In this document: positions 10,329 through 50,265 of the stretch, piece by piece
How the letters are laid out: every line of letters starts with the position of its first letter
Numbering within the stretch: the stretch's first letter is position 1
Assembly (NCBI GenBank): GCA_027459625.1
Contig: DAIDHP010000003.1
Location: 1-64,000, forward strand
Length of the DNA stretch: 64,000 bases
Origin: Chthonomonadales bacterium
GTDB lineage: Bacteria; Armatimonadota; Chthonomonadetes; Chthonomonadales; CAJBBX01
Direction of reading: 5' to 3'
Made by a program: the position numbers and the translations under genes
Notes under the pieces: model-generated
Databases searched by the model: none
The model's input: only the letters and a program-made list of their open reading frames with translations
What the model was told of the DNA's origin: nothing

Positions 10329-11642
10329 ATGATCCGTCATAGTTCGTTCGGCAGGAACGTTTTGTGTGTGTTGTTGCCCCTTGGATGCCTCTTTTTTTCG
10401 CTATCCACATTCGCAAACGCAGCACCATTGAAAATCCCCAATCGCATCTTCAACATTCAAAGTTATGGCGCGAAACCCGACGGAAAAACGGATGACACAG
10501 ATGCATTCCGGAGCACCATGCAAGCATGTGAAAAGGCGGGCGGTGGAACCATCGAGGTTCCCAATGGCAGGTATCTTACCGGGCCTATCGATCTTAAGAG
10601 CCATACGAACCTGCACCTATCCTCCGGAGCGACGATTCTCTTCACGGATCGGGAAGAGGCGTATGCTCTCCCGAATGGAGGGTATCATCCGCTCCTGCTG
10701 GCGAGGAATGGATCCGCTGTCGCGATTACCGGCAAGGGAACCATGGATGGCCAGGGCGCTCCATGGTGGAAGGCATTCCTTGAAGCGAAAAAGAGAGGCG
10801 AAATCATGAGGCGACCTTCGATGGTGGTGTTCGATCATTGTAACCACATCCTCGTTCAAGGGGTCACCTTGCTAAACTCCCCGAATATCCATCTGAACCC
10901 GGAGTATTGCACGGATCTGCGGGTTGATGGTGTAATTATTCGCGCCCCTATGAATTCGCCGAACACCGACGGCATTGATCCAACGCACTGCAAGGACGTG
11001 TCGATAACCCGATGCACCATCGATACCGGGGATGACTGCATCGCGATTGGGTCAGGAATGGATCATAGCAGGAAGCCCTTCGGTCCTTGTAAACATATTC
11101 GCATCTCGGATTGCGTTTTTCTGCACGGGCACGGCTTGTCCATAGGAAGCTTCACCGAGTCGGGGGTGAGGAATGTGGTTGTGGAGAATTGCATCTTTGA
11201 TGGCACTGATAACGGCATCCGTCTGAAATCCGAAAGGGGCAGAGGAGGGGTGGTGGAGAATCTGACCTATCGGAATATCACCATGAAAAACGTCAAAAGA
11301 GTGATCGATATTATGAGCTATTATCCCCATTCGCCGAAGTTCGGTCAGCTGGACCCACCGCAACCCGTCACCGCAAGCACTCCCGTTTGGCGCGACATCA
11401 CCATCCGAAATCTCCACGCCACCAATTGCCAGGAGGTGGGGATCATTGTGGGATTGCCGGAGGAGCCAGTTGCTCGTCTTGTATTGAGGCATGTCTTTAT
11501 TTCCGCCAAGAAAGGGTTGCGAATCAGTTACGCAAAACGTATACGGTTGATCGATACGACGATCCTGACCGCACCCAATACCAAGCCGATCCGCATGGAG
11601 GCCGTCACCAATTTCAAGCAAGCGGGGAAACTGAAGTCCTAG
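10329..11642 (+). CDS. GH28 polygalacturonase-like pectinase, secreted
   Basis: A 437-residue protein with a signal peptide (residues 1-31, ending FANAA) and a parallel beta-helix. The GH28 signatures occur in order: NTDG at 212-215, DD at 235-236 within DTGDDCIAIGSG, GHG at 267-269 and RLK at 298-300 (normally RIK). All expected catalytic acids are present. GH28 enzymes cleave alpha-1,4-galacturonosyl bonds of pectin or rhamnogalacturonan. ATG 10329 has GAAGGAG upstream; an earlier TTG reading is unlikely. The 238-bp gap after it shows no clear feature. Confidence 0.93.
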   Translation: MIRHSSFGRNVLCVLLPLGCLFFSLSTFANAAPLKIPNRIFNIQSYGAKPDGKTDDTDAFRSTMQACEKAGGGTIEVPNGRYLTGPIDLKSHTNLHLSSGATILFTDREEAYALPNGGYHPLLLARNGSAVAITGKGTMDGQGAPWWKAFLEAKKRGEIMRRPSMVVFDHCNHILVQGVTLLNSPNIHLNPEYCTDLRVDGVIIRAPMNSPNTDGIDPTHCKDVSITRCTIDTGDDCIAIGSGMDHSRKPFGPCKHIRISDCVFLHGHGLSIGSFTESGVRNVVVENCIFDGTDNGIRLKSERGRGGVVENLTYRNITMKNVKRVIDIMSYYPHSPKFGQLDPPQPVTASTPVWRDITIRNLHATNCQEVGIIVGLPEEPVARLVLRHVFISAKKGLRISYAKRIRLIDTTILTAPNTKPIRMEAVTNFKQAGKLKS

Positions 11643-11880
11643 GCTATGACTGCAGTGCTGCTGAGATAAATCCGAGGCTTTCACGCGATTCATGATTGCA
11701 ACCGTGTATTTACCAACTCGCGATTATTGGATTAGCCAATTTTGAATCCGTGCTTTTCCACCCAGTGAGACCCATGTGCGAATAAATTGGGTGGAAGGCG
11801 CTGTTTACTTTTAAACAAAATCGTTCCATGGCGTCCGTCTTCAACATCTATCATGCGAAACCCGCAAGGGGGGAATCAAA

Positions 11881-33544: not shown

Positions 33545-34684
33545 CTATTCCTCCGACGCCACAATGAGGATGTCAATTTTCCGTAATTGGCGCGCCACCT
33601 CATGGATGATGGAGCCGTGCAGGAACTCCTGCCATCTCGTGCTGCGCGAATGTCCCATCACCATTTGAGTGATCTCCTTCTCCTTTGCATAACGGATCAG
33701 TTCCTCCGCCACATCCCCATGCAAGTTAACCACGGGAATGTTCAGACGGTTCGCCAGTTCGAGGTCATTGGATAGAATATTCCGCTCCTCTGTGCCAGGG
33801 GGGCGGCATTCCACATACACCGCCACGATATCCCCTTTGAGCCGCTGAGCTATTCTCCAGCCGCGTCTTATAAGGCGCATGGAGGATCTTGACGGGCTGA
33901 TGCACACCATAATGCGATCATGCGCCGCCCAAGTCTCCTCGATCCTATTGTCTTTACGATACGTGGATAACTGAGTGTCAACTTCATGCGCCGTCTCTCG
34001 AAGCGCAATCTCCCTCAGCGCGTTGAGGTTTCCCTCCCTGAAGAAGTTACGCATCGCGTGATTCACTTTTTCCGCAGGATAAACATCACCTCTTTCCAAG
34101 CGATTGATCAAGGCTTGCGGCGGGATGTCTATCATCATCACCTCGTTCGCCTCTTGAAGAATGCGATCCGGAACGGTCTCCCTTACCCAAACTCCCGTGA
34201 TATCGTGGATCGTGTCGTTAAGGCTTTCAAGATGCTGCACATTCAGTGTGGATAGGACGCTGATTCCCGCATCAAGGAGAACCTCCACATCCTTCCACCT
34301 TTTAGCTCTTTCGGACCCAGGGACGTTTGTATGGGCGAGTTCATCCACGATAACGAGTTGAGGATGCCGAGCCAATATCGCGTCCGTGTCCATCTCCTCG
34401 AAGGTGGTTCCTCGGTATTCCACGACCTTTCTCGGGATGATCTCCAAATCACCGATCTGCTTCTGTGTGCCTTCTCTGCCGTGTGTCTCCACATAACCGA
34501 TCACAACCTCCTCGCCTCGGCTTCGTCTGCGGTTTGCCTCCGCAAGCATTTCGTAGGTTTTGCCAACTCCCGCCGCGAATCCGAGAAATATCTTGTGGTA
34601 GCCGTGGCGTGACTTGCGTTCCGCCTTCATAACCTTGGCGAGTAACTCCTCAGGATCCGGACGTTTTATCTCCTCTTGGCTCAT
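33545..34684 (-). CDS. kdpD: KdpD N-terminal domain as a separate protein (KdpD + USP)
   Basis: A 379-residue protein corresponding only to the cytoplasmic N-terminal half of the KdpD sensor kinase. It has the P-loop GFAAGVGKTYEML, the KdpD blocks VVIGYVETHGR, PQLVIVDELAHTNVPGS and VLSTLNVQHLESLND, then a universal-stress-like domain (DRIMVCISPSRSSMRLIRRGWRIA, later MVMGHSRSTRWQEFLHGSIIHEVARQ). In other bacteria the USP domain of KdpD binds c-di-AMP. No membrane segments or kinase domain follow. Its start overlaps the stop of the response regulator (ATGA), so the two are coupled. It is the last gene of the kdp operon. Confidence 0.92.
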   Translation of the reverse strand: MSQEEIKRPDPEELLAKVMKAERKSRHGYHKIFLGFAAGVGKTYEMLAEANRRRSRGEEVVIGYVETHGREGTQKQIGDLEIIPRKVVEYRGTTFEEMDTDAILARHPQLVIVDELAHTNVPGSERAKRWKDVEVLLDAGISVLSTLNVQHLESLNDTIHDITGVWVRETVPDRILQEANEVMMIDIPPQALINRLERGDVYPAEKVNHAMRNFFREGNLNALREIALRETAHEVDTQLSTYRKDNRIEETWAAHDRIMVCISPSRSSMRLIRRGWRIAQRLKGDIVAVYVECRPPGTEERNILSNDLELANRLNIPVVNLHGDVAEELIRYAKEKEITQMVMGHSRSTRWQEFLHGSIIHEVARQLRKIDILIVASEE

Positions 34685-35454
34685 GGATTTTTCTCAACTC
34701 CCTGACCAGTGGTCGCCGATAGCACCGCATCCACCCATTTGTGCAAATTGGTTGTGAGTTCCGTTACAGTGAGTGTGTCATCGGGGGGGAAAGAGGCGTT
34801 TTGCCAAAGGTAATTCGCCAAAGCCTCCTCCGCCAATCCCTGCCAAAAACGATCCTCGCCAGGCATGTTCTCTCGATCCGAAAGCGCCTTTACAAGCTCG
34901 ATTATGTAATTCGGCAGAATCACTTTGCTTATAATGCTCTCGCCTGCGGGATTGCGTACGATGAATTCGTGTATTAATTGATCGGGTCCACGATTGCACT
35001 CGTTCGGATGCGACAGAATTCTAAAACCGTTAATCGTGGTCATGCCGTATGTTACAGGGGAGTCCAATCCATAGGGTTGATTGCTATCGCCTTGCTGGGT
35101 GATGGATTGCACGGTTTCCCTTAGGGTTTCCATCGTGAAGGGTTTTCGCAGGAAATCCGTTGCGCCCGATTTCATCGCCTCCACAACCAAGTCAATCGTG
35201 CCGAACGCAGTGATCATCACCACTTTTGCGTCCGATTTGCGATCTTTCATCTCTTTAAGCACGGCAAGCCCTTCCAATACCGGCATTCGCTGATCAAGCA
35301 AAACCAGGTCGTAACCGGCGCCGTTTGCGAATTTCTTTAACCCTTCCACCCCGTCCGCTGCGGTATCCACTTCATGACCGACGTGTTGTAACGCCAGCCG
35401 GATTGTCATCCGTATGTTCGTTTCATCATCAATGACCAGTATCCGCGACATCAT
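34681..35454 (-). CDS. Response regulator with unknown C-terminal domain
   Basis: A 257-residue protein. The receiver domain spans residues 3-120: ILVIDDETNIR (acidic pocket), the phosphorylated Asp54 in LVLLDQRMP, ITAFG (Thr) and FLRKPFT (Lys). It resembles NtrC-type receivers. The C-terminal 125 residues (YGMTTINGFRILSHPNECN through LHKWVDAVLSAT) show no OmpR-type winged helix as in KdpE, and no other output domain that I recognise. The start is ATG 35454 or 35451, overlapping the kinase gene end by about 25 bp. Its position between kinase and KdpD fragment marks it as the kdp regulator, though DNA binding is not evident. Confidence 0.85.
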   Translation of the reverse strand: MMSRILVIDDETNIRMTIRLALQHVGHEVDTAADGVEGLKKFANGAGYDLVLLDQRMPVLEGLAVLKEMKDRKSDAKVVMITAFGTIDLVVEAMKSGATDFLRKPFTMETLRETVQSITQQGDSNQPYGLDSPVTYGMTTINGFRILSHPNECNRGPDQLIHEFIVRNPAGESIISKVILPNYIIELVKALSDRENMPGEDRFWQGLAEEALANYLWQNASFPPDDTLTVTELTTNLHKWVDAVLSATTGQGVEKNP

Positions 35455-37300
35455 CCATATCCTTTCTGTCCGCAAGGAGGGGGAGCGATATTTCGAAAAC
35501 ACTGCCCTTGCCTAATTCGCTTTTGACCGTTATTTCCCCGTTGTGCGCCATTACTATCGTCTTAACAATTGACAATCCAAGCCCCGCTCCTCCCTTGGTG
35601 GCGCTTGGCACTTGTACAAATCGATCGAAAATCCTCGAAAGATACTCTTTTGGAATGCCGCACCCGTTATCCGTCACCATTAATGACATATGCGAGTTTC
35701 GCCTGTACGCCTCGACTTTGACGACGCTGTTGGCGGGGGAGTAGCGTATGGCGTTTGTTAATAAGTTCACGAGAGCTCTCGATATCTGCGTTCGATCCGC
35801 ACGGACATATGTCAAATCATTGTCATAATGCAATTCCAAATGAATGTTTTTCATATCCGCCTGGGTGCGTACCGAATCGATGGCTGAGGTTGCAATTTCA
35901 GAGGGGGAAACAATCTCGAATCTTGGCGGGGTGATTCCGGATTCGAGCCGTGAAAGATCAAGCAACTCTTTCATCATCCGGTCCAGTCTGTCCAAATCCT
36001 CTCGCTGAGCGCGAATGAGTTGTTGCTGTTCCGAATTCAATTCACCCACCGCTCCCTCCTGAAGCAGTTGAACTGAAAGCAATAAAGAAGTAACCGGAGT
36101 GCGTAATTCATGCGAAGCCACTCCGATGAACTCCGTTTTCAATTTGTCCAGTTCCCTTAGATGGGTGACATCCTCCAAGACAGCCGCCGCTCCAAGCAGA
36201 ATTCCCGTCTCATCTCTCATCGGCGTGGCACGCAGACGATAGGTTCTTCGAGTGTTTGAGACTTGTAGAGGAATGTACGCCTCCTCCCCCTCCGGAGCCG
36301 AAATCCGTTGATTATGTATCACTCCATCGATGGCATCGGATATCCGCACATCCATTGTTAAGCCCTTTACGGATAAACCGACGGCATGCTGCGCTGGACC
36401 GAATAGTCCCTCCGCCGCATGATTCAAATGAACGATATGCCCCGTTGAATCGGTGACGATCACCGGGTCATATAGACTATCAATTGCGGCGTCCGACATT
36501 CTTTCCGCTCGGCGTAGTTTCTCCGTATCCACCTGTTTCGCCTGCCGTAATTGCAACGCCATTGTGTTGAAGGAGTTTGCAAGGACGCCGATTTCATCTT
36601 TTCTACGCAACTCAATCCTTTGGTTCAGATGTCCACGCCCGATCTCCTCCGCCTGACGCGCCAAAGTGTGCAAAGGCATAAGGGTCAGGTTAATGATTTT
36701 TATTGCAAAAAGAATGGAGATTAAAAATGCTAAAAGAGTGACTCCCGCCCCGGTCCACGATGTCCATTCGGCTTGCCGTTCAGCTTCCTTATCGGCTCGG
36801 AGAATTGCACGTTGGTTCAGATCGAGAATGGCTTGAGCAAGCTGCTTAATACCGATGAATTCCGGCTCGAGTACCCCAAAATAGTATCTCTTGGCATTTA
36901 ATCCAGTCATGCGAGAGGAGGAGAAAAGAAGCTTACGGATATTTTGCGTGTAAGTCGTGAATTGTGAGTGTATCGATGAAGCCAATCTCCCTTCGCCTTT
37001 TTCCGTGATGTTATGGGCCTCAATATCATAGGCTTTTTCAAAAAGAGGATAGTTCACCTGATATTGATTCTTCGCCATTTGCACCTTCCCTGCAAGATAG
37101 AAAGCGGCGGCGCTATCCTGTCGTTCCAATGTTTCCTTCATGTTTTGCGCGGCGATGACACTTTTGTAATTATTCTTCAAGATTCTATCTATGGAGTGAC
37201 CGAGATAAAACAAACTGATCACCCCTCCCGTCATCACGACGAGCATGAGAAATGCCAATATAAGATGACTTCCTAATAATTCCGTCCGGATGCTACGCAT
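35429..37300 (-). CDS. Membrane sensor histidine kinase (HAMP-PAS-HisKA-HATPase)
   Basis: A 623-residue kinase. One membrane helix is at about 10-35. A periplasmic helical sensor of about 140 residues follows, then a second helix at about 185-207. HAMP covers about 208-260 (LARQAEEIGRGHLNQRIELRRKDEIGVLANSFNTMA) and PAS about 268-385. The phospho-His lies in GVASHELRTPVTSLLLS. ATPase boxes are N (LLTNAIRYSP), G1 (VTDNGCGIP), F (FDRFVQV) and G2 (GGAGLGLSIV). It replaces the kinase half of KdpD but has its own sensor. It follows kdpC by 12 bp and is co-transcribed. Confidence 0.93.
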   Translation of the reverse strand: MRSIRTELLGSHLILAFLMLVVMTGGVISLFYLGHSIDRILKNNYKSVIAAQNMKETLERQDSAAAFYLAGKVQMAKNQYQVNYPLFEKAYDIEAHNITEKGEGRLASSIHSQFTTYTQNIRKLLFSSSRMTGLNAKRYYFGVLEPEFIGIKQLAQAILDLNQRAILRADKEAERQAEWTSWTGAGVTLLAFLISILFAIKIINLTLMPLHTLARQAEEIGRGHLNQRIELRRKDEIGVLANSFNTMALQLRQAKQVDTEKLRRAERMSDAAIDSLYDPVIVTDSTGHIVHLNHAAEGLFGPAQHAVGLSVKGLTMDVRISDAIDGVIHNQRISAPEGEEAYIPLQVSNTRRTYRLRATPMRDETGILLGAAAVLEDVTHLRELDKLKTEFIGVASHELRTPVTSLLLSVQLLQEGAVGELNSEQQQLIRAQREDLDRLDRMMKELLDLSRLESGITPPRFEIVSPSEIATSAIDSVRTQADMKNIHLELHYDNDLTYVRADRTQISRALVNLLTNAIRYSPANSVVKVEAYRRNSHMSLMVTDNGCGIPKEYLSRIFDRFVQVPSATKGGAGLGLSIVKTIVMAHNGEITVKSELGKGSVFEISLPLLADRKDMDDVADTGH

Positions 37301-37312
37301 GGAAACCTCGTT

Positions 37313-37900
37313 TTATTTATGCGTATTGGCGGTGAGTTCATCCAACGCCATATTAAGCCTGACAACATTCACCCTAGGCTCCCCAAGAATTCCAAACTGC
37401 CTTCCATCAGTATACCGCTTCACCAGGTTGAGAACCTTTTGAGCAGGCAGGGAACGCGCCTGCGCCACTCTCCCGGCCTGCAATAGCGCGTTTTCAGGGC
37501 TTATGTCCGGATCGAGTCCGCTTGCGGATGCGGTGACGGCATCCGGCGGTACGAGGGTGTGGGGGGGAAGTCCATTCTCCTGGCGATATTCCACCACTCT
37601 TCGCGCCACATTTGCGACAAACAATTTATTTGTTGGTCCCAGATTTGATCCTCCGGATTGCATGGGATCATAACCATTCCCCGCCGCAGACGGGCGCGGA
37701 TGGAAGTATTTAGCGGATTTGAAATCCTGTCCGATAAGATAGGACCCCCTGACCACACCGTTTTGACGTATTAGACTGCCATTCGCCTGTTTGGGGAATA
37801 GCAACTGCGCGATTCCAGTGATCGCCGTTGGGTACGCCAGTCCAGTGATGATGAAGAACGCCAGGGTTATAATCAATGCGGGTCTTAGCTGTCTAATCAT
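37313..37900 (-). CDS. kdpC: K+-transporting ATPase subunit KdpC
   Basis: A 195-residue protein with one N-terminal membrane helix (ALIITLAFFIITGLAYPTAITGIAQLLFP). Conserved blocks are SYLIGQDFKSAKYFHPRPSA, then VTASASGLDPDISPENALLQAGRVAQARSLP. This is the standard KdpC length and order. KdpC stabilises nucleotide binding in the KdpFABC complex of the inner membrane. The gap to kdpB is 15 bp, within the operon. Confidence 0.97.
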   Translation of the reverse strand: MIRQLRPALIITLAFFIITGLAYPTAITGIAQLLFPKQANGSLIRQNGVVRGSYLIGQDFKSAKYFHPRPSAAGNGYDPMQSGGSNLGPTNKLFVANVARRVVEYRQENGLPPHTLVPPDAVTASASGLDPDISPENALLQAGRVAQARSLPAQKVLNLVKRYTDGRQFGILGEPRVNVVRLNMALDELTANTHK

Positions 37901-37915
37901 TTTGATTGCCTCCGT

Positions 37916-40036
37916 CTATACCAAGTGTAAAGCGGTTATGATACGGTCTATAATCCAGATTCCGGGAAACGGCGCGATTAATCCGCCAACCCCGTAGATG
38001 AGCAGATTGCGTCTCAGGGACGCCGTCGCGCTCATGGGTTTGTAGGCGACACCTCTTAACGCCAGAGGAATGAGCATGATGATGATAAGCGCATTGAATA
38101 TCACCGCTGAAAGTATCGCGGAGTCCGGGCTGTGCAGATGCATTACATTCAACGCCCCCAGAGCCGGATAGGTTACCGCGAACATTGCCGGAATGATCGC
38201 AAAATACTTCGCTACGTCATTCGCGATGCTAAAAGTCGTTAGTGCGCCGCGAGTCATGAGCAATTGTTTGCCGATCTCCACGATTTCAATGAGTTTGGTG
38301 GGATTGCTGTCCAAATCCACCATGTTGCCAGCTTCTTTCGCCGCCTGAGTTCCCGTATTCATGGCGACACCTACATCCGCCTGCGCCAGCGCCGGAGCGT
38401 CATTCGTGCCGTCCCCTGTCATTGCGACTAATTTGCCGCCGGCTTGCTCCGCCTTGATGAGCCTCATTTTGGCTTCCGGAGTCGCCTCTGCGAGAAAGTC
38501 ATCCACTCCCGCCTCCTCGGCAATGCTCGCGGCGGTTAGGGGATTGTCGCCTGTGATCATAACCGTTTTAATGCCCATGCTTCGCAATTGATCGAATCTC
38601 TGTTTTATCCCTCCTTTGACGATATCCTTTAAGTATATGACTCCCAAGGGCTGACAGTTAAGAGACACGGCTAGAGGGGTTCCGCCGGCGGATGATATCT
38701 TCCTTATGATTTCATCCAACTCACTCGGCACGGCGCCACCGGCTTCAAGGATGTATTTTTTGATTGACTCGCCGGATCCCTTTCGGATTTGCATTCCATT
38801 CAAATTCACTCCGCTCATGCGCGTCTGTGCGGTGAAGGGAATGAACTCCGCATCCCTGTCATGTAGTTCACGCCCTCGCAACCCGTATTTCTCCTTTGCC
38901 AGCACCACGATGCTCCTGCCCTCTGGTGTTTCGTCTGCGAGAGAGGAGAGTTGCGCCGCATTCGCGAGTTCATTCACCTCCACGCCCTGCAAGGGGATGA
39001 ACTCCACGGCTTGCCTGTTGCCGAGGGTGATGGTTCCCGTTTTATCCAAAAGTAGGGTGTTGACATCGCCCGCCGCCTCGACAGCTTTCCCGGACATGGC
39101 TAAAACGTTATGCTGCATCACCCGATCCATCCCGGCTATTCCTATTGCGGATAGTAATCCTCCAATGGTGGTGGGAATTAAACAAACCAGCAATGCAACC
39201 AAAACGGTGATGGACGGTGGCGAACCGGCGTTCGCCGATCGCACGCTATACACCGCAAACGGATAGAGCGTGAAAACGGCGAGTAGGAAGATGATGGTCA
39301 AGCCGGCCAACAGGATGCTCAGGGCGATTTCATTCGGGGTTTTTTGACGCTGCGCTCCTTCCACCAAGGCGATCATGCGATCGATAAATGTCTCCCCCGG
39401 ATTCGCGGTGATACGTATGATGATGCGATCCGAGAGCACCTTGGTGCCGCCTGTCACAGCGCTGCGATCTCCACCGCTCTCTCGAATAACCGGGGCGGAT
39501 TCCCCTGTGATCGCCGACTCATCCACGGAGGCGATTCCTTCGATCACTTCTCCATCGCATGGAATGATGTCATTCGCTTCGCATACCACGGTGTCACCTT
39601 TACGAAGACTGGTTGCGGGAATGATCTCTTCCCGTTTTCCGTCGATTAACTTTCTCGCATGGGTTTCGGTCTTGCTCTTACGGAGAGAATCCGCCTGGGC
39701 TTTGCCTCTTCCCTCCGCCATCGCCTCCGCGAAATTCGCAAACAGGCAGGTAAACCACAACCAAAGCGTCACCTGACCGCTGAAAAGCGTATTGTGATTG
39801 TGAGTGACAGCCTCCTTTAGGAAGAGATAAGTGGTAAGTGCGCTGCCGATCTCGACTACGAACATCACCGGATTTCGAGCCATTATGCGCGGATCCAATT
39901 TCCGCACCGACTCCATTAATGCACTCTTCAAGATAACGGGATCAAAAAGCGACTTGGGAGCGTTTTTTGGTCTTTTGTACCCGCTGGATTTTTCGGGTGT
40001 ATGTTCAGTCTCGGTCAGAGATGTCGTTGTTGTCAT
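37916..40036 (-). CDS. kdpB: K+-transporting P-type ATPase subunit KdpB
   Basis: A 706-residue P-type ATPase. The actuator motif is [10 protein letters not shown]. The phosphorylation site is [14 protein letters not shown], and the hinge is [33 protein letters not shown]. The nucleotide-binding region has [13 protein letters not shown]-like residues. These are the KdpB hallmarks; the subunit hydrolyses ATP to drive K+ uptake through KdpA. ATG 40036 has CAGGGAGA upstream and lies 14 bp after kdpA. Length is normal. Confidence 0.98.
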
Positions 40037-40050
40037 CTATATTCTCCCTG

Positions 40051-41838
40051 TTATATCAATTTGCCCAAGATCATATGAAACTGTTCAACGATGGGTCCGA
40101 GAGCCAATGCCGGAATGAAAGTCAACGCTCCGACGATCACTACAACCCCAACCAAGAGGTAAGCGAACGTGGCGGAGTCCGTCGGAAAAGTTCCAAGGGA
40201 TAGAGGCGTGTATCTTTTTTTCACCAAGCTTCCAGCCAGAGCTAGGAGCGGTATGATCATGAAAAACCGCCCTATGAGCATTGCCAATCCGATCGTGAAA
40301 TTGTAATATGGTGTGTTGGCGTCCAGCCCTGCGAAAGCGGAGCCATTATTGCCCGTGGCGGAGGAGTAGGCGTACAGTATCTCCGTGAAGCCGTGAGGAC
40401 CGGCGTTTTCCACGTTTTTGTAAGTAGCGCCAATGTATTGATGATTAACGTTATTCCTGTTCCATTCGTTTTCTCGAGATAGATTCAGATTGGCTCCAAT
40501 GGACGTGAAAATGAGAATGTTCGCAGCGAGTATCAAAACCGCAAGCATCGCCATCTTGACTTCATACTGTTCAATTTTCTTTCCGAGATACTCCGGCGTT
40601 CTGCCCACCATTAACCCGGCAATAAACACGGCGATGATGGCGTACATCAGCATTCCGTACAATCCCGACCCCACGCCTCCGAAAATCACTTCGCCTGAGA
40701 GAATATCGAGCAGGGGAACCATTCCTCCTATGGGGGTGTAACTGTCGTGCATGGAGTTCACCGCGCCGCAGGATGTGTCGGTGGTGGCGGTGGCGAATAG
40801 TGCGCTGTTCACGATGCCGAAACGCACCTCCTTGCCCTCCATGTTTCCGCCGGGTTGAAGAGCGGATGCTTGTAGCATCACCCCCAAACGCGTGATGTTC
40901 GGGTTGCCTTTCATCTCGGAATGATAGCAAACGAAGACTCCGCATAAAAACAGTATGCTCATAGCGGCGAAAATCGCCCATCCTTGGCGCGTATTTCCCG
41001 CCATCTTACCGAACGTATACGTCAACGCCGCCGCGATGAGAAGAATGGCAAGGATTTCCAAGAAGTTTGAAAGCGGGGTTGGATTTTCATAGGGATGAGA
41101 GGAATTCGCATTGAAGAACCCACCTCCGTTTGTGCCCAACTCCTTGATCGCCTCCTGAGACGCCACGGGACCCTGGGGAATCGTTTGAGTCTGTCCGCTA
41201 ATTGTTTGTGCGTGAACGTAGGGATTGAAATTCTGAGGAACCCCTTGCCAGACTAAAATCAGACTAAAGATGATACTTATGGGTAAAAGTATGTAGAGAA
41301 TCCCTCGGGTCATGTCCACCCAGAAATTACCCAGTCCACTGGCGTTATGCCTGACGATCCCTCTAATGAAGGCTATGGCGATAGCCATCCCAGTGGCGGC
41401 CGACATGAAATTATGACCCGCCAGCGCGAACATATTGGTGAAGTAGCTCAAAGTGGCTTCAGGTATATAGCTTTGCCAGTTCGTATTGGTTGCAAAGGAT
41501 GTCGCCGTGTTGAACGCCAGATCCGGCGGAACCCGCCTGCCAGTGAAGTGCTGCGGGTTCCATGGTGTAATTCCTTGGATTCGCATGAGCATGTAGGTGA
41601 TAAGGGCTCCGACAACTGTGAACGCCAGCGTGGCGAATAGATAGTTCATCCACCGCATATCCTCATTTTCGTTCACTCCGCTAATGCGATACAGAAACTT
41701 TTCAACTGGTTTGAGGATTGGATCCAAAAACGTCCTATCTCCCGCATATACTCGCGCCATATAACCGCCGATCGGTTTTACGAGCGCAAGCAGAACGCCG
41801 AACAAGAGAAGGATTTGTATTACTCCATTGAGAGTCAT
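40051..41838 (-). CDS. kdpA: K+-transporting ATPase subunit KdpA
   Basis: A 595-residue channel-like subunit with about ten membrane helices. Selectivity-filter-like segments include FNTATSFATNTNWQSY, ELGTNGGGFFNANSSHPYENPTPLSNF, TDTSCGAVNSMHDSYTPIGG and YAYSSATGNNGSAFAGL. It selects and conducts K+ in KdpFABC. ATG 41838 has AAAGGAT upstream; upstream codons in the open frame are not conserved. Somewhat longer than the E. coli protein (557 residues). Confidence 0.97.
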   Translation of the reverse strand: MTLNGVIQILLLFGVLLALVKPIGGYMARVYAGDRTFLDPILKPVEKFLYRISGVNENEDMRWMNYLFATLAFTVVGALITYMLMRIQGITPWNPQHFTGRRVPPDLAFNTATSFATNTNWQSYIPEATLSYFTNMFALAGHNFMSAATGMAIAIAFIRGIVRHNASGLGNFWVDMTRGILYILLPISIIFSLILVWQGVPQNFNPYVHAQTISGQTQTIPQGPVASQEAIKELGTNGGGFFNANSSHPYENPTPLSNFLEILAILLIAAALTYTFGKMAGNTRQGWAIFAAMSILFLCGVFVCYHSEMKGNPNITRLGVMLQASALQPGGNMEGKEVRFGIVNSALFATATTDTSCGAVNSMHDSYTPIGGMVPLLDILSGEVIFGGVGSGLYGMLMYAIIAVFIAGLMVGRTPEYLGKKIEQYEVKMAMLAVLILAANILIFTSIGANLNLSRENEWNRNNVNHQYIGATYKNVENAGPHGFTEILYAYSSATGNNGSAFAGLDANTPYYNFTIGLAMLIGRFFMIIPLLALAGSLVKKRYTPLSLGTFPTDSATFAYLLVGVVVIVGALTFIPALALGPIVEQFHMILGKLI

Positions 41839-41928
41839 TGGCTTATCCTTTATGGAAACTGTAATGATATCTTGAGAATGGTATGTATCGAATAATATCG
41901 TTAACCATTTCATCCTTGAACATCAATT

Positions 41929-42012
41929 TTAGAACTTCTCCGGTTTTAACAGGGCGTAAAGCAAATATCCTAAAAGTCCCATGGATATCACCGCCGATAA
42001 TAAAATGTCCAT
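41929..42012 (-). CDS. kdpF: KdpF small membrane subunit
   Basis: A 27-residue single-helix peptide: MDILLSAVISMGLL then GYLLYALLKPEKF. The end LLYALLKPEKF is the KdpF hallmark. KdpF stabilises the KdpABC complex between KdpA and KdpB. ATG 42012 has AAAGGA upstream. It sits directly before kdpA, as usual. Confidence 0.92.
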   Translation of the reverse strand: MDILLSAVISMGLLGYLLYALLKPEKF

Positions 42013-42029
42013 ATTACCGTCCTTTTCTC

Positions 42030-42110
42030 TTAGAGCTTGTCGCATCCGCGAATGAATAACACGCAAATAGCAAAGAAGACAATCAATACTGCAACATAGA
42101 AGATATCCAT
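42030..42110 (-). CDS. 26-residue membrane peptide at head of kdp operon
   Basis: ATG 42110 opens a single-helix peptide of 26 residues (MDIFYVAV, a hydrophobic core, and the end FIRGCDKL). GCAGGGGG lies 6 nt upstream, an excellent ribosome site. It ends 17 bp before kdpF. The shape, a short helix with a basic, Cys-containing C-terminus, differs from KdpF, which is also present. Similar tiny ORFs upstream of kdp genes are known to me only as hypothetical proteins. It is probably a Kdp-associated small protein. Alternatively it is a leader peptide, since it follows an intrinsic terminator. Confidence 0.65.
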   Translation of the reverse strand: MDIFYVAVLIVFFAICVLFIRGCDKL

Positions 42111-42127
42111 GGTTTTCCCCCTGCGAC

Positions 42128-42181
42128 AAAAAAAGGAGCTGCAACACAAGAGATTCGTCGAACCCCTTCAGTTGCAGCCCC
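42128..42181 (-). terminator. Intrinsic terminator (attenuator) in kdp leader
   Basis: On the minus strand GGGGCTGCAAC (42181-42171) pairs with GTTGCAGCTCC (42145-42135), with one G-U pair and a 25-nt loop. Seven U follow (42134-42128). It lies only about 20 nt before the first kdp start codon and downstream of the kdp promoter. Confidence 0.8.
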
Positions 42182-42340
42182 CTTTACGACCTGTCTCGGT
42201 TTATGTCAAGCCGACACCTTTCGTCCTGGTAACTGACGCCATTTATTTAAAGTTATATCAATCGATTGTAATGTAAGGTAATCGCACTTTCCGATTTCGG
42301 ATGTCGATTTTGAACGCTGCAATCACCTCGTTTTACCAGC
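42182..42340 (-). ncRNA. kdp mRNA leader, candidate cis-regulatory RNA
   Basis: The sequence between the predicted transcription start (about 42340) and the terminator is about 160 nt with no ORF of note. It contains local stems such as CGUC-AGUUACCAG-GACG and UGUC-GGCU-UGACA. No known riboswitch consensus was matched by eye. Confidence 0.4.
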
Positions 42341-42346
42341 GAATAT

Positions 42347-42375
42347 ATACTATCGCAAACCTGAGAGTTTGTCAA
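42347..42375 (-). promoter_or_regulatory. Predicted kdp promoter
   Basis: On the minus strand TTGACA (42375-42370), 17 nt and TAGTAT (42352-42347). The -35 box lies inside the last codons of the DUF2294 gene. Spacing is ideal. Confidence 0.65.
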
Positions 42376-42748
42376 TATCTCCACGCAACATTTTTTTCTC
42401 CACATCCTTTTCGAATATGAATATCTCTACCTGTTCGGCTCTCTCCACATCGACGTCGTAGTAACTGCAGATGACTTTGACTTGCACAATATCGGCTATG
42501 ATCCCTTCGATCTCCGTGTGGTTAATGGATCTTAGCTCTCTTCTGGAGCTTTGGATGAGTTTGAGACCATCCTGGGTTGCAGCGAGTCTCTTTTCGATAG
42601 GGGTGAATATTTCCGACGAACGAACTATAGCCATGTCGCCGAGAATGAAGGCGCGCACCTGCCCCGCGCCGCGACCCATCTGCTCCCGCTGGAACTTGAC
42701 CGCTGCGTTTGCAATCTCAGCTTCCAACGCCCCTTTCGTGATTTGCAT
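42350..42748 (-). CDS. DUF2294 family protein
   Basis: A 132-residue protein matching DUF2294: it opens TKGALEAEIANAAVKFQREQMGRGAGQVRAFILGDMAIVRS, then FTPIEKRLAATQDGLKLIQSSRRELR, and later a strand block VQVKVICSYYDVDVERAEQVEIFIFEKD. The family is common in bacteria and uncharacterised; some members lie next to ion transporters. ATG 42748 has GGAG upstream. It directly precedes the kdp operon on the same strand, and the kdp promoter overlaps its end. Confidence 0.85.
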   Translation of the reverse strand: MQITKGALEAEIANAAVKFQREQMGRGAGQVRAFILGDMAIVRSSEIFTPIEKRLAATQDGLKLIQSSRRELRSINHTEIEGIIADIVQVKVICSYYDVDVERAEQVEIFIFEKDVEKKMLRGDIDKLSGLR

Positions 42749-42820
42749 GAAACAAACTCCAACCCGATTTTTTGTAGTATACCTTTGCAGAGGGTATTAT
42801 GATCAAAAAGGGGATATGAG

Positions 42821-45800
42821 ATGAAAACCAAAGGAATCAGCCGCCGGGAATTTGTGGAGTTGATGGCGGGTTTGATTGCCATGAATATGGTCACTGAATC
42901 CGATGCAATGCAAAGGACATTTGGCACGGTTCGTTCTCATTTTGATGATAGCGATATTGCGGCTCGATTACGGCGTCGTTACAGCACCGAGCCAGCTATG
43001 CTACATTTTACCTCTGATGGTTTGATCCTTTCCAATCAAACCAGCGATACGATTTTAACACTCGCAGCCTCCATGCCGGTATTCGATTTCGGCGATTTCA
43101 CAATTGGAGGTGCGAGCACCTCCCGGATCAAATGGAAAGAGCGGGAGATTGGCGACACGGTTCGTTGGACAAGAGAGCTTCATGCATCCCCCCCTCATCC
43201 CGCGATTATTCACGAAATCCTGGAGTATCACCGCGATTCGTCATTGATTTACAGATGCGCCGAGATACAACTCGAAGGGGAGCGCGCACTTCTTCATACT
43301 GTTACGATAGATGAAGTAATCGCCAAGGACGCCTCTCTGACCCATAATCCAGGCATTCAGAGCCATCCTATATTAGGGGATTCTTTTTTTTGCGGCGTGG
43401 AGTATCCCGTCGCCCCCACAACTCAGGTGAACGCTAACCATGTCACGCTTAGCAATGCACCAGGCATTTGGCTGGAGCCGGGGCGGGTGTATCGAACCCG
43501 ATCGGCAGTCTATGGGGTGACGCAGCCCGGGAATTCCCGCCAAGCATTCGAAGAGTACATCTCCGCTCTGCGCCCCGACCCGATTAATATCCATTGGAAC
43601 TATAATAGCTGGTGGACCTCGCCTGTGCCCTATACGGAATCCGATATCCTGAAAATCATAAAGGAGTTCAAAGAGAACCTGTACATTCCTTATCACGAAA
43701 TGACGGATACTTTTTGCATTGATATGGGCTGGACCAATAGCGAATCCATATGGCAAATCAATCCATCCTTGTTTCCCAAGGGTTTCACCGGTTTGGAGAA
43801 GGCGTTGAAGGAAATCCATTCAAAGTTGGGCTTATGGATATCGCCAAGCGCTGTTTACGGTCAGGCTCTAAATCTCGTATGGGCGAAGCAAGCCGGTTAC
43901 GAAGCGGATCAACAAAAATGCTGTCTCGGCGGACCGCGTTATCAGGCGGCGTTTAAAATGGCGCTGACTTACATCGTCGGAAACTTCGATCTTGGGCATG
44001 TGAAGTTTGACGGATATGTCGAGACTTGCAACGATACAAATCATGGTCATCAACCCGGCTTGATGTCGGCGGAACCGATCGCCGAAGGAATCATTGACGT
44101 CTTCCTCACTCTGCACGTTATGAAGCATGATAGTATCTGGATGGAGCCAACCTGTTTCGGATTTGATCCCAGTCCGTGGTGGGTGATGTATTGTAACTCC
44201 GTTATAGGATGTTTTGGAGCGGATTCGCCATATGGTCAGTCGCCATGTCCGAATTATCGTGAAAGTTATACAACTGCTCGCGATAACTACAACCTGAAGG
44301 GCGATGCGCATATTCAGATTCCCATCGCCGCAATCGACGATCTCGGGATTGACCATCAAACGGAGGAGCCCTTCCAAAACGATGCGGTGACCACCGTCCT
44401 GCGCGGCAACCAGTTTCTTCCTCTCTATGTCAATCCCTCTTTTATGTCGCCAAGGAGATGGGAGTTTCTCGCCGCTTTGTTGAAGTGGGCGAGACGTAAT
44501 ACGAGGGTTTTGAGCGAAACAAAGCCGATCTATCCCGCTTCCTGGAAAGGCGGCGAGTTGGCTCCATGGGTCTTTTCCTCTTCGGTATTCCCAAGGGAAC
44601 CTTATGGTTACGCGCATTGGAAGGGGGATAAAGGGTTGCTATGTCTTCGAAATCCATGGATTGACTCCGTCACGTTGAGCCTTTCTCCGAGCAAGGATAT
44701 GGGAGCGCAGAACGGTTTGGAGGATCTAACCGTCTCCCTTATCTATCCGGAAACGCGAATCGTAGCCACCGGTGTTAAATCGGAAACCCCGTTGGACCTG
44801 ACTGTCGCACCTTATGAAACGGCTCTGTATGAGATTAAGCGACAATCGCACAAATCCAAAGTGACACGTCCGGCATGGATCGCCCCGCAAATGGAGGTGA
44901 AAGTGAATGCGGTTCATCTTCAAATCAGCAATAAGGGCGAGGAATATGGAGCGGATTACACGCGACTGCTGCCCGATAAAGGCGATCATTTGAAGGTAGC
45001 GATGAATGGAATTATCCGATTAGCCGATTCCGGAAGTTACGAACTCTTGGCGCTGGCGGAAGACAGTAAGCCAGTGGAAATCCCCGTCTATGATTTTCAA
45101 GTCAATGGCGCATCCGTGGAACCCACCATTATTAGTTCGGAGACAGGATGGTCCGCCGGGGGCGGAGCGGACCAGGAGCACTGGGTTTGGCTAATCCTCC
45201 CCCTTGAATTACACGTTAGTGATATCAACGCATCCGTTATCCTCGCCGGGGCGACCGGCAGGCTTTCAATCTGGGTGGTGAGGCGTGACAAGATTCCTTG
45301 GGAGCCGTTGAAAAAAGTGACCGGCTCCATCATCCCACCACCCGAAGAGAGATATATAGGCGCTGTCAATCTATGCCGGTACTTATCACTGAATGATAAT
45401 CTCCCCGTCGTGCAGGGAGAATCACCGATAAAGCGTATCAACGGAATCTATTTGGACACCCTGAAACCTGTCTCCGCCACTCAAGGGTGGGGAACTCTGC
45501 ATTTCAATCAAAGCGTGACCGGCAGCCCGCTATGCATCGACGGTGTGATCCACCTCAGAGGCTTGGGCACACACGCCCTCTCAAGAATCATCTACGATCT
45601 TGACGGGAAATACTCCAAGTTTGAAACTTGGGCGGGTCCCGATCAAGCCACAATGGCGACAATCACCATGGAGGTGCGTGTGGATGGAGAAGTCGCATGG
45701 AAATCCGGTTTGCTAAGCCATGACAGCCCGGCTCAAAGGGTTGTTGTGGATGTGCGAGGAGCCAGGAGATTGGAGTTATTCGTGGGGGATGGCGGTGACG

Positions 45801-45850: not shown

Positions 45851-46259
45851 ATACACTCCCGCCATATCACTCCTCGAGGTAACGAACGGGGAAACGGTTC
45901 CAAACATCCTCCATCACAGCTCTTCGATATGGAAGTGCTCGTTTCATCGCTGTAACAATTATATTTATAGTTGCGTATACGATATGTGTTTGAAGGAGAT
46001 CATCTCCGGAAATAACATCCGGAGATGATGTTTACAGTCTTCTTTTTCAATGACATTTACGGGAACAGGGCGGTTCAATCATGGATGTGATCAATCCTTT
46101 GTTATGATATCCTTGAAGTATCCACTTTCTATTTCCTAATCATTGCATTCCCCCTCATGGGAATTGAATGGCTGCAAGCGAAGATCGAATGACACGACAG
46201 TCGAAACGAAAATAGGAACGCCAAAAGCGCATTCGATCATTATAGGAAAGGGGAAGCAA
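45851..46259. other. 409-bp intergenic region
   Basis: It holds the terminator at 45999-46029 and otherwise shows no gene. The last 120 bp precede the pilin-like gene at 46260 and contain AT-rich promoter-like stretches, but not the TTGACW/TTWAAT form seen at the minus-strand pilin genes. Confidence 0.5.
45999..46040 (+). terminator. Intrinsic terminator after GH36-like gene
   Basis: ATCATCTCCGGA and TCCGGAGATGAT form a perfect 12-bp stem (45999-46010 and 46018-46029) with a 7-nt loop, followed by a T-rich stretch to about 46047. Confidence 0.7.
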
Positions 46260-47045
46260 ATGAGAGTAAAACGCGGGTTCACACTAATCGAATTACTCGT
46301 GGTTATCGCAATAATAGCGATACTAGCGGCAATTCTTTTTCCTGTGTTTGCAAGGGCGAGGGTGCAGGCGGAATCGATCACCAGTATTTCAAACCTCAAT
46401 CAAATAGGGATGGCTTTACAGATGTATACTCAGGATTATGATGACACATATCCAACGGTACCGACACCGGAGGCGTCAAGCGTTGGGGATGGATGCGGGG
46501 TGTTGTACGGTGGGCAGCAATCCATTGGAAATCAGCAACAGCTTATCTACTCCCAGCTCAATAGTTTCGAATCACAACTATATCCCTACACAAAGAGCAG
46601 CCAAGTATTCATATGTCCTGGTGATAACGGTGCGGTGCCACTGGGAAATATCGGCTCGTCCATTCCGGATACGGCGTTTCCCATCGGGAATCGCTTCAGT
46701 TCCTATGGATATCGATTTTTCCTGTATTCCCCGATGGCTCCTAACCCATGCGGCTATGATGCCAATTTCAGTTCAGGAATGGGAACGGTGTTGAAGGAAT
46801 CGTCGCTGCCATATCCGTCCCAGACATTTGTTTATAATGAGTTATGGGTTTGGTTTGACAACCAGATGACGTATTTGCCTTGGCTCAAAGGAAACGGATG
46901 GGCTCCAGCCGATCGCATGAACTTTGAATTCGCCGACGGGCATGCGAAATCCTATCCAGTCGGGCAGATATTGCTCCAAGCGCCATACGCCACCGGTGTT
47001 GGGTACGACTTCAATTGGCCGCGCCTTGGCACAAGTGATCTATAG
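46260..47045 (+). CDS. DUF1559-type prepilin-like protein
   Basis: A 261-residue protein with a class III/type IV prepilin leader: MRVKRG then [20 protein letters not shown], with cleavage expected between G and F by a prepilin peptidase. The helix ends [13 protein letters not shown], followed by [20 protein letters not shown] and, near the end, [13 protein letters not shown], the DGH motif of this family. It is anchored by the N-terminal helix and exported as a pseudopilin or surface protein. ATG 46260 has AGGAAAGGGG upstream. It is followed by a small membrane protein gene in the same operon. Confidence 0.92.
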
Positions 47046-47068
47046 GCGATTTCAGAGGAGGTGGAGAG

Positions 47069-47293
47069 TTGAAACAAGCGATCTCACGAAGGACTCTATG
47101 GGGCGTGTTGGCGTTGGTGGTGATTGTCATTGGCTTGATTGTCTGGGTGTTTGGCGAACATCCTTTTCAATTCACAAGCGACGGCGCCGCCAACGCAAGG
47201 ATTCAGGCGAACTTGCCGCGTCCAAAGGCGATGAGTTCCCCATTGCGAAAGGGACAGATTCCTTTTGCAAGAAATGAAAAACGGCCCTCATGA
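47069..47293 (+). CDS. Small single-pass membrane protein, pilin partner
   Basis: A 74-residue protein with one helix (LWGVLALVVIVIGLIVWVFG) and a basic, Pro-rich tail. TTG 47069 is the start: AGGAGGTGGAGAG lies just upstream. It follows the prepilin-like gene by 23 bp. Similar small proteins often follow pilin-like genes in this phylum; function unknown. It converges with the next pilin-like gene over a shared terminator. Confidence 0.7.
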   Translation: MKQAISRRTLWGVLALVVIVIGLIVWVFGEHPFQFTSDGAANARIQANLPRPKAMSSPLRKGQIPFARNEKRPS

Positions 47294-47311
47294 CCCACAA
47301 GAAGAATAATA

Positions 47312-47336
47312 GTGTTCCGGGAGATTCCCGGAACAC
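47312..47336. terminator. Bidirectional terminator between convergent pilin genes
   Basis: Perfect 11-bp stem GTGTTCCGGGA / TCCCGGAACAC with a 3-nt loop. On the minus strand it is followed by TATTATTCTTCTT. Confidence 0.75.
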
Positions 47337-47361
47337 CATTTGCTATGCCCCATCCCTGTGA

Positions 47362-48075
47362 CTATCGGCACTGCGAACTGATTGTTCGCTGATCGTTGTT
47401 GCAGGAGGAAGTGGGGTCGAAGTTCCACATGCAAGAGGGGGCGTAGGCTTGGATCCACTTCATGGCTTTGGTGTGTCCGTCGCAGAAGAGGAAGTTCGCC
47501 ATGCCGCTGTGAATGCACATGTTGGGACCGCACCACCGGCACAAGTCAGCGCAACCGCCTCCGTTTTGCTCGATGATGATAATTTTTTGGGCAGGTTGGA
47601 GAACAATGGACTCGTTTGCGGACGAATTTTGTGCATAGGAGAACCCCCATGAAGGTGGCGTGTCGCCGTTATTAGTTGCGTAATAATATGAACGCGACCA
47701 ATTGTTGGGCTCTATGTTTCCACCAACGCAATCACCGTTCCAATAGTTAATCGCGGATGGATTTGAGGGGCATGCGAAGACCTGATAGCTCTTCACATAC
47801 GGGAAAATGGAATAACGCCATTCCCATGCATGTTGCCCGTCCCACATTCTGACGCAAGGATAGTGTTCGTCGTAATCCTGGGTGTATTGCATGATCGCCA
47901 AGCCAATCTGGTTTTCATTGCTCAGACACGCGGCCGAACGTGCCTTCTCTCTGGCCTGTGCAAACACTGGGAACAGGATTGCGGCTAAGATAGCAATAAT
48001 TGCTATTACTACAAGCAGTTCGATCAAGGTGAAAGCATTTTTCCTTGAAATTACAGAACAATCAGCACGTTTCAT
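47362..48075 (-). CDS. DUF1559-type prepilin-like protein
   Basis: A 237-residue protein: basic leader [13 protein letters not shown], then [20 protein letters not shown] and [39 protein letters not shown]. The mature part has conserved Cys: [33 protein letters not shown] and a final SSQCR. It ends with [14 protein letters not shown] and SCMWNFDP. The processing site residue before F is Ala rather than Gly, as in its sisters here. It shares promoter type and Cys pattern with the genes at 49193 and 53488, so the three are recent paralogues. Confidence 0.92.
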
Positions 48076-48159
48076 TTCTTTTCGCCTTTCGTTAATATAT
48101 ATAGTGCCAATGGGGATGTTCCGAAAATGGAATAATAGCAGCTCTCCATTTGATGAATT

Positions 48160-48188
48160 ATTAAATCATATTTAATCAAAATTGTCAA
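48160..48188 (-). promoter_or_regulatory. Promoter of 48075 prepilin gene
   Basis: Minus strand TTGACA (48188-48183), 17-nt spacer ending TGA, TTTAAT (48165-48160). The start codon is about 80 nt downstream. Confidence 0.8.
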
Positions 48189-48476
48189 GAGAAAATATTT
48201 GTTCGCCGTAATCGAAATTCACTATGGCAAAACTTGATTGTGGTGAATGGTGATGCGATGATAACCGGGCGTTCCGACAGTCGAGAAATCTCTTTCACAG
48301 ATTTGAATTGCGTCATACAGGTGGGGACTCTTCCAATCTTACAATAATCATGGGACTTCTACACGGAGAGCTAGCGTGGAATGGCGTGATTGCGTTTCAT
48401 AGACGATGGGCATGGAGGTAAAAAAAGAGCCGCCTCGAATTCAATTTCGAAGCGGCGTGAAATACTCCGGGTCAAT
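48189..48476. other. Intergenic stretch between prepilin genes
   Basis: It contains the terminator of the next gene at 48419-48456. No gene seen. GCGTGATTGC at 48384-48393 weakly resembles the dispersed GTGATTGC element. Confidence 0.4.
48419..48456 (-). terminator. Intrinsic terminator of 48477-49193 gene
   Basis: GCCGCTTCGAA pairs with TTCGAGGCGGC (minus strand, 48456-48429, one G-U pair), followed by CTCTTTTTT. Confidence 0.85.
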
Positions 48477-49193
48477 TTACTGGCATTGCTGCGCGATAGT
48501 TCGCTGGTCGCCGTAGCAGTTACCGTTGGGGTCGAAATTCCACATGCAGTTTGGCGTGTAGGTTTGAACCCATTTCATGGACTTGACATGTCCATCCACG
48601 AAGAGGAAGTTTGCCATTCCGTTATGGACGCACACATTCGGGCCGCACCACTCGCACAGGTCCGCACAGCCCCCGTTGCCCTCAATGATGATGATTTTCT
48701 GCGCTGGAGCCATCACTACGGAGAGTTTCGAGGTGGAATTGTCCGCATACGAAAACCCTCGGGTGGGTGACATGTTCCAATCACAGGTTGCGTAATAGTA
48801 GGAATGAGGCCATACATTTCCCTCTATCATATTCCCCGCACAATCACCGGGCCAGTAATTTGATGCCGCTTGATTGGATGGGCAGGCGAAAACCTGGTGA
48901 CTTTTAATATATGGGTAAATCTCATACTTCCACTCGTATTGCTGCGTTCCGTTTGGCGCCTGCATCCGAACGGAAGGGAATGCTTCATCAAAATCCTGCG
49001 TGTACTGCATGATAGCAAGACCGATTTGATTTTCGTTGCTCATACATGTGGCGGCCCGAGCCTTCTCACGCGCTTGGGCGAAAACAGGGAAAAGAATTGC
49101 TGCGAGAATCGCTATTATGGCTATAACGACGAGCAGTTCAATCAGGGTGAACCCCGGTTTTCTAGATGATCCGATGCAATTTGCACTTCTCAT
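48477..49193 (-). CDS. DUF1559-type prepilin-like protein
   Basis: A 238-residue paralogue of the 48075 gene: leader ending RKPG, then [20 protein letters not shown] and [24 protein letters not shown]. It has the same Cys set ([33 protein letters not shown], final AQQCQ) and [14 protein letters not shown]. Here the leader keeps the classical Gly before F. The gene has its own promoter and terminator, so it is a separate unit, not part of an operon with its neighbours. Confidence 0.92.
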
Positions 49194-49284
49194 GCTTGTC
49201 TCCGTTCCTTTTGTTGAAAAGTGATTCGACTAGAACAATTTGTTGGTAAGTGTACAATCAAGAATACAATTAATTGCCTCAGTA

Positions 49285-49313
49285 ATTAAATCATACTTCC
49301 GAGAAAAAGTCAA
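49285..49313 (-). promoter_or_regulatory. Promoter of 49193 prepilin gene
   Basis: Minus strand TTGACT (49313-49308), 17-nt spacer ending TGA, TTTAAT (49290-49285). Confidence 0.8.
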
Positions 49314-49459
49314 GTGGTAATGGAGAGTGTTTTTCATTCCCTCCCTATGTATTTGCTTTAATTAATGATCCATCCGTTGTGTTTCTTATCTTAGAGCGAT
49401 GACGGTAACATTGATACTGGTGAAAAATAGACTTCAGTGTGGGAATTATACAAATATCA

Positions 49460-50200
49460 TTACATATCATCCAGGGGGATTCCGATGATCGCCCCGGATG
49501 TGAAAAAGGATGGTCTGTTACTGATTCGTGGACGCGCAATCCTGCATCCGGCGTTGTAATCCACTTGGGTCCTTCCCAAACCTTGGCCAGAGTAGTCCAC
49601 CACAGTGTTGTCATTCACATGGTCCCACATGTTGAACCCGTTTGCGACGGAGGCGGTTGGTCTCATCGTTTTGGCGTGACCATCGCATAAAAGAAGCTTG
49701 AACTGACCCTCATGCCCTATGAAGCAGGATTGCCAGTTGTATCCGCCGGGGTACCCCACCAAGGCGAAGCCCAGTAGTCCCAAGGTTGCAGGCGAAGATA
49801 CGAGACAAATATCTTCTGAGCGTGCTCCTGCACCACTGCAAGTTTCATGAGTCGGTTCGCCTAGTTATAGCCTCCGTCAAAATGTCCGCCTGCGTCGTTT
49901 ATGGCAAAATCGGATATCAAATTGTTTGAACCTGACATGTTTTGGCTGCTGGCTGACGGACAAACCCATATCCGCTTGCTTATGAAATAGGGCATGCAGG
50001 TGTCTCTCCGACTCCACCACATCAGGTAGTTGGCGAAATCCCATCCGAAGTAGGTGTCATCATAATCCTGTGTGTATTGAATGATCGCGCGACCGATTTG
50101 CTTTTCATTGCTTAAGCAGGAGATGTGGCGTTCCTTCTCCCGCGCAGCACGAAAACCGGAAACAGAGTTGCAACGAGAATCGCTCCATGGAATTTCTCCA
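49460..50200 (-). pseudogene. Decayed prepilin-like gene
   Basis: Pieces of the family survive in two frames. About 49861-50165 encodes [38 protein letters not shown] and WVCPSASSQN; 49460-49783 encodes FKLLLCDGHAKTM and related text. Just upstream, ATLFPVF can be read in another frame, but the FTLIELLVV helix is gone. At least one frameshift and an N-terminal deletion have occurred. Its promoter (50204-50232) is still intact, so the copy may have died recently. Confidence 0.8.
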
Positions 50201-50203
50201 TAT

Positions 50204-50232
50204 ATTAAATCACACATATCAATAATTGTCAA
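50204..50232 (-). promoter_or_regulatory. Promoter of the dead prepilin copy
   Basis: Minus strand TTGACA (50232-50227), 17-nt spacer ending TGA, TTTAAT (50209-50204). Confidence 0.75.
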
Positions 50233-50265
50233 GAGATAATAATAAAATTTCTCATCCCTGAGCAC

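Follow-up and report, generated by a model that had tools for sequence, protein, structure and literature searches.

Transcription of kdp operons is usually described as being controlled at the promoter by KdpD/KdpE, or as being shut off by c-di-AMP riboswitches. In B. subtilis, kimA is a further gene under c-di-AMP riboswitch control. In members of the Bacillus cereus group, kdpFABC is under the control of the c-di-AMP (ydaO/yuaA) riboswitch RF00379, an OFF switch (PMC6488665). The leader described here, found in a window of 64,000 nucleotides (the whole stretch of DNA analysed) from an uncultivated Chthonomonadales bacterium of the phylum Armatimonadota, resembles that system in that an intrinsic terminator lies in a kdp leader and the subject is K+ homeostasis. 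It differs in sequence and structure, which give no match, in size (about 60 nt, compared to about 134 nt for RF00379) and in sign, since c-di-AMP binding promotes termination whereas the conserved fold reported here would prevent it. A preliminary description of the leader had seen by eye no likeness to the ydaO consensus, and this agrees with the covariance model, which gave no RF00379 match in the leader at strict or permissive settings. Identity as a c-di-AMP riboswitch was rejected on the absence of a match in both the leader and its relatives, with a positive control in the same genome. That control is a canonical RF00379 copy (L209, C52:10588-10722, minus strand) preceding a dapB-like gene; the organism thus has c-di-AMP signalling, though not at kdp.

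LicT and SacY act on the RAT hairpin, which is interrupted by two internal loops, shares its 3' strand with a terminator as the 5' arm of the latter, and is off by default. The present leader has the first two properties and probably the third, but the RAT is 30 nt long, compared to about 60 nt here, and has another sequence. No BglG-type protein was found among the operon genes examined. Response regulators of the ANTAR type (EutV, NasR, AmiR) can also act by antitermination (PMC3369931). Likeness to these lies in a two-component system, a receiver protein without a DNA-binding domain and probable antitermination; the difference is that ANTAR targets are dual hairpins with conserved hexaloops, whereas one long irregular hairpin is found here. 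Two tandem hexaloop hairpins (A1, G4) were not seen in the consensus, which is a single hairpin of three helices (P1-P2-P3) with a variable loop, and the ANTAR domain (PF03861) is absent from the response regulator of the operon, in which Pfam finds a receiver only. The Na+-I (DUF1646) and Li+ (nhaA) riboswitches likewise serve ion-linked transporter regulons, and one target of the present RNA is a Na+/H+ antiporter, but no Rfam match to them was obtained.

The kdp locus and its leader

The locus is read from the minus strand in the order mpsC, promoter, leader of about 230 nt, terminator, a 26-aa ORF, kdpFABC, sensor kinase, response regulator and KdpD-Usp. The features are as follows.

42350-42748, minus strand: mpsC (DUF2294), the gene 5' of the leader (Pfam PF10057, MpsC, E=1.2e-29)
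42347-42375, minus strand: promoter TTGACA-N17-TAGTAT (TTGACA 42375-42370, TAGTAT 42352-42347)
42135-42185, minus strand: intrinsic terminator hairpin, predicted fold, dG about -31 to -33 kcal/mol
42128-42134, minus strand: U7 tract, read from the sequence
42030-42110, minus strand: small ORF for a 26-aa membrane peptide, the first ORF after the leader, conserved before kdpF, no Pfam family
41929-42012, minus strand: kdpF (Pfam PF09604)
40051-41913, minus strand: kdpA (Pfam E=1.7e-239)
37916-40036, minus strand: kdpB, from Pfam E1-E2 ATPase and hydrolase domains and operon position
37313-37900, minus strand: kdpC (Pfam E=2.3e-72)
35429-37300, minus strand: sensor histidine kinase, from domain content (HAMP, PAS, HisKA, HATPase)
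34681-35502, minus strand: response regulator, a receiver joined to a C-terminal domain (about 115 aa) that matches no family
33545-34684, minus strand: KdpD sensor domain and Usp domain, no kinase

The KdpD protein (33545-34684, minus strand) thus consists of sensor and Usp domains only, and a separate gene of the same operon encodes the HAMP-PAS kinase. The 26-aa membrane peptide has the sequence MDIFYVAVLIVFFAICVLFIRGCDKL, and peptides related to it are encoded before kdpF at no fewer than 18 of the kdp loci read, whether or not the RNA is present. Further along the window, several adjoining pilin-like genes with a prepilin N-terminus are located at 46143-50265.

The promoter, which had been placed at the end of the DUF2294 gene, was confirmed. 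It is the only match with 10 of 12 positions within 41500-43500, it overlaps the 3' end of the DUF2294/MpsC gene (42748-42350) and it is kept in the sister genome as TTGACA-N17-TAGCAT. No promoter was found 3' of the terminator; one at that place would have spoken against regulated read-through. The leader of about 230 nt with its strong terminator and seven U was present as first described, and the terminator was the main hairpin of the predicted leader fold, for which the MFE was -80 kcal/mol (z -5.0 against dinucleotide shuffles). The arms of the hairpin are at 42182-42171 (5', with pairing reaching 42185) and 42145-42135 (3'). The strength of the hairpin had been judged correctly, but its stem is at least 12 bp rather than 11 bp and closes a 25-nt loop that is itself folded; because of this loop the hairpin was missed by a simple terminator scan. 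Its closeness to the operon also held, with a gap of 17 nt rather than 20 nt between the U7 tract and the first ORF (start 42110), which encodes the 26-aa peptide and not KdpF. A 12-bp hairpin on the 5' side of the leader was shared with the sister genome only and was therefore not counted as part of the element.

No family of Rfam 15 reached its gathering score anywhere in the window, the leader included; a match there would have spoken against the preliminary reading. Permissive settings near the leader gave no plausible match, and the same was true of the leaders of relatives. The permissive matches (psbA 3'UTR at E=1; microRNAs) were rejected as chance. The RNA element is without a counterpart in Rfam 15, in the window as well as in its relatives.

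The conserved RNA and its distribution

A search of 61 relatives gave KdpA homologues in 29, and the regions upstream of these were compared. The comparison of kdp leaders, proposed in the preliminary description, yielded both covarying stems and an alternative antiterminator pairing. The shared upstream pattern is GGUUGCC-N3-NCGA-AAGG-(stem)-AG-UCGN-N3-GGAGGCC, followed by a hairpin from GGAGGCC to GGCC-UUUU and then by the 26-aa ORF, KdpF and KdpA. It defines a conserved RNA of about 60 nt with three helices, P1, P2 and P3, located in the window as follows.

42228-42235, minus strand: P1 5' strand CAGUUACC, putative antiterminator, from comparative structure
42221-42224, minus strand: P2 5' strand ACGA, from covariation (A-U, C-G, G-C and U-A types across relatives)
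42192-42216, minus strand: P3 stem-loop, variable in length and sequence (UGUCGG ... CCGAGACA), from single-sequence fold and covariation
42186-42189, minus strand: P2 3' strand UCGU, from covariation
42175-42182, minus strand: P1 3' strand GGGGGCUG, which is also the terminator 5' arm and the predicted switching sequence, from comparative structure and fold

P1 is formed by GGUUGCC and GGAGGCC with G-U wobbles (alignment columns 1-5 and 7-8 with 96-97 and 99-103). Position 6 of P1 is a mismatch, G.A in relatives and A.G in the genus of the window, so that a non-canonical pair is kept by a swap. P2 has 4 bp, and two internal loops, one 3x3 and one AAG/AG, part the helices. A pairing of P1a with an upstream GGUA, seen in the MFE fold of the window, was rejected as it is absent in the sister genome.

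Covariation was scored in a MAFFT alignment of 17 sequences that was not fitted to the structure and reached 0.361, against 0.205 (sd 0.023) for shuffles. This score was reached by none of 500 shuffles, and structures slid along the alignment gave at most 0.154. In the fitted alignment of 27 sequences the values were 0.383 against 0.177, P1 was paired in 94%, and two-sided changes were present at every P2 and P3 pair, these counts being taken over copies that are related by descent and hence are not independent events. Unaided, RNAalifold gave the same P1, P2 and P3, and nearly all single sequences folded alone into P1-P2-P3. The register of P3 is variable, and P2 pairing is poor in three distant copies (L080, L081 and L087).

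Attenuation through translation of a leader peptide is most improbable. Both genomes of the genus have an open TTG frame of 38 codons, but the peptides are only 71% identical, compared to 96% for the neighbouring MpsC, the changes fall at codon positions 2 and 3 (6 and 9 of 16), and most of the remaining leaders lack the length for the frame. For these reasons it was rejected.

The covariance model R2, with E-values from a short calibration, was used for a search of 291 Armatimonadota genomes and gave 27 copies of the RNA in 23 genomes. Nearly all 27 were recovered by model R3 with stricter whole-phylum filters; all further R3 matches had E > 1e-3 and, where checked, came from genomes without these operons. 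Weak matches in other genomes were, in those checked, located in unrelated and partly coding sequence; the matches in G091, G241, G259, G264, G286 and G231 had no adjoining K+ genes, lay partly in coding repeats and were rejected. No RNA was found by R3 in the leaderless relatives and Fimbriimonadaceae. All 27 copies precede K+ genes: 21 precede kdp, two kimA, three a sensor-kinase operon and one a CPA1 antiporter-HK-RR-KdpD operon. For the kimA target, B. subtilis KimA was obtained as a PDB match with E=1e-135, and two of the three sensor-kinase operons have kimA downstream. In several genomes the RNA occurs twice, at loci apart from each other. One such second copy (L168, G025:C40, about 10388-12286), counted among the 21 at kdp, is located before a degraded, solitary kdpA.

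The putative antiterminator and the terminator

In all 27 copies the 3' strand of P1 lies inside the 5' arm of a hairpin with a U tract. P1 is assigned as an antiterminator because its 3' strand doubles as that arm. Every one of the 27 homologous leaders has an equally good hairpin at P1b, the 3' strand of P1, compared to only 26 of 2000 random positions from the same loci (1.3%), so this feature is not due to chance. The conserved structure and the intrinsic terminator are mutually exclusive in every copy, as expected of an attenuator of the ON type. The dG of the terminator, a thermodynamic and not a co-transcriptional value, is lower than that of P1-P2-P3 in all 27 copies, although nearly equal in one. 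With the terminator as the more stable fold, termination would be the default, and read-through would need P1 to be stabilised.

From these sequence comparisons, the leader is probably a transcription attenuator of the ON type (probability about 0.8), and the RNA very probably acts as a switch that governs K+ uptake genes. The proposal that something regulates read-through, as an attenuator or a riboswitch, is thereby supported by comparative data on the conserved RNA and the terminator. The anatomy implies that the switch is OFF by default and ON when P1 is stabilised, and we infer that induction takes place when K+ is needed. Were P1 instead the default fold, to be broken by the effector, the switch would have the opposite sign.

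The following mechanism is proposed. RNA polymerase starting at the promoter would transcribe the P1-P2-P3 hairpin of about 60 nt. With nothing bound, P1, which contains two U-G wobbles and the G.A mismatch, would be displaced, the terminator would form and kdp would be off. An effector recognising conserved P1 together with the AAG/AG internal loops would hold P1 in place and block the terminator, and kdpFABC, the sensor kinase, the response regulator and the KdpD domain would then be transcribed. A sigma-70 promoter (at least 9 of 12 positions) was found within 170 nt upstream of only 9 of the 27 copies, against a background of 7%.

It is very unlikely that the hairpin is simply the terminator of mpsC, with kdp served by another promoter. 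Although mpsC is just upstream in many genomes, no promoter fits into the 17 nt between the U tract and the first ORF, and mpsC is not the adjoining upstream gene at six copies (G012, G014, G007:C160, G022:C82, G025:C40 and the first copy of G042). The conserved P1-P2-P3 would also be left unexplained.

Candidate effectors of the proposed switch

The effector of the proposed ON switch may be a small ligand or ion, which would make the RNA a riboswitch, or a protein of the K+ module, and the two are about evenly weighted. The best protein candidate is MpsC/DUF2294. It is fairly likely that the system is either a new class of riboswitch, sensing an ion or metabolite of K+ shortage and turning importers on, or a case in which MpsC/DUF2294 is a new RNA-binding antiterminator protein.

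A true riboswitch, in which P1-P2-P3 directly binds a molecule or ion of K+ shortage (e.g. Na+ or a nucleotide signal) and P1 is thereby stabilised, is a plausible reading, at somewhat less than even odds. ON transcriptional riboswitches are classically built in this way, with P1 overlapping the arm of the terminator, and a covarying structure across diverse genomes, as expected of an aptamer, was found. Unpaired purines are conserved in the two internal loops, some copies have no regulator gene nearby (G022, G025 and G007), the targets span unrelated importer families and the CPA1 antiporter, and the RNA is retained in G024, which is without the response regulator. On the other hand, P1, usually variable in aptamers, is here the helix most conserved in sequence, and the aptamer would be a simple irregular hairpin with no junction and no visible pseudoknot. 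c-di-AMP could still be the ligand, but would have to act with a sign opposite to that of RF00379, which is also in the genome.

Alternatively, MpsC/DUF2294, usually encoded directly upstream, might bind the hairpin as an antiterminator, by analogy with LicT/SacY on the RAT; this is possible, but rather unlikely. In a co-occurrence census of the 291 genomes, in which shared ancestry and neighbouring genes make all figures suggestive only, MpsC was found in 22 of the 23 genomes with the RNA (the remaining one is 64% complete), an association not expected of a pure riboswitch, and in 37 of the 291 altogether. In G012 the gene is kept elsewhere, though not adjacent, and the two conserved internal loops of the hairpin also fit an RNA-binding protein of this kind. 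A search of the MpsC model (pLDDT 92) against the PDB gave no significant match; the weak fold matches (E above 0.07) were mostly to ribosomal proteins, many of the L23 type. The association may, however, reflect operon co-inheritance. MpsC is present without the RNA in 15 genomes, six of which (Fimbriimonadaceae) also have the response regulator and show no leader at the loci read, and DUF2294 occurs elsewhere without kdp. The protein has a near-neutral pI. No role is known for mpsC, and its deletion in S. aureus was without growth phenotype (PMC6689103).

It is improbable that the operon's response regulator uses its new C-terminal domain to bind the hairpin as ANTAR regulators do. The regulator is found in 21 of the 23 RNA-bearing genomes by the same census. 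It lacks a DNA-binding domain, in contrast to the OmpR-type KdpE encoded immediately 5' of kdp at four leaderless loci of the phylum. The C-terminal domain (34684-35052, minus strand; AlphaFold pLDDT 89) is present in 53 of the 291 Armatimonadota genomes, and scanning 84,980 species for it gave only records named Armatimonadota (or its lineages) or unnamed bacteria. Against families and PDB folds the domain gave no significant match, and it resembles no known fold; it is also acidic (pI 4.3-6.1) and kept in about 30 genomes where no leader was found. The regulator occurs in Fimbriimonadaceae, in some of them together with MpsC, and no leader was found there. In G024, furthermore, the RNA and MpsC are present, but the kdp operon is without kinase and regulator, and the regulator domain has no match elsewhere in the genome.

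Among the papers searched, none joins 'riboswitch' with Armatimonadetes or Armatimonadota, and in the titles and abstracts of those on kdp, antitermination and leader, antitermination at kdp was not described. The RNA is a previously undescribed element shared by a set of K+ transport operons of one phylum, and its inferred wiring is reversed, with the bound state on. Most genomes that bear it have a kdp response regulator without a DNA-binding domain. Once found, the effector would reveal a new RNA that senses a ligand in K+ homeostasis, or else the first molecular function for DUF2294, a widespread family of unknown function.
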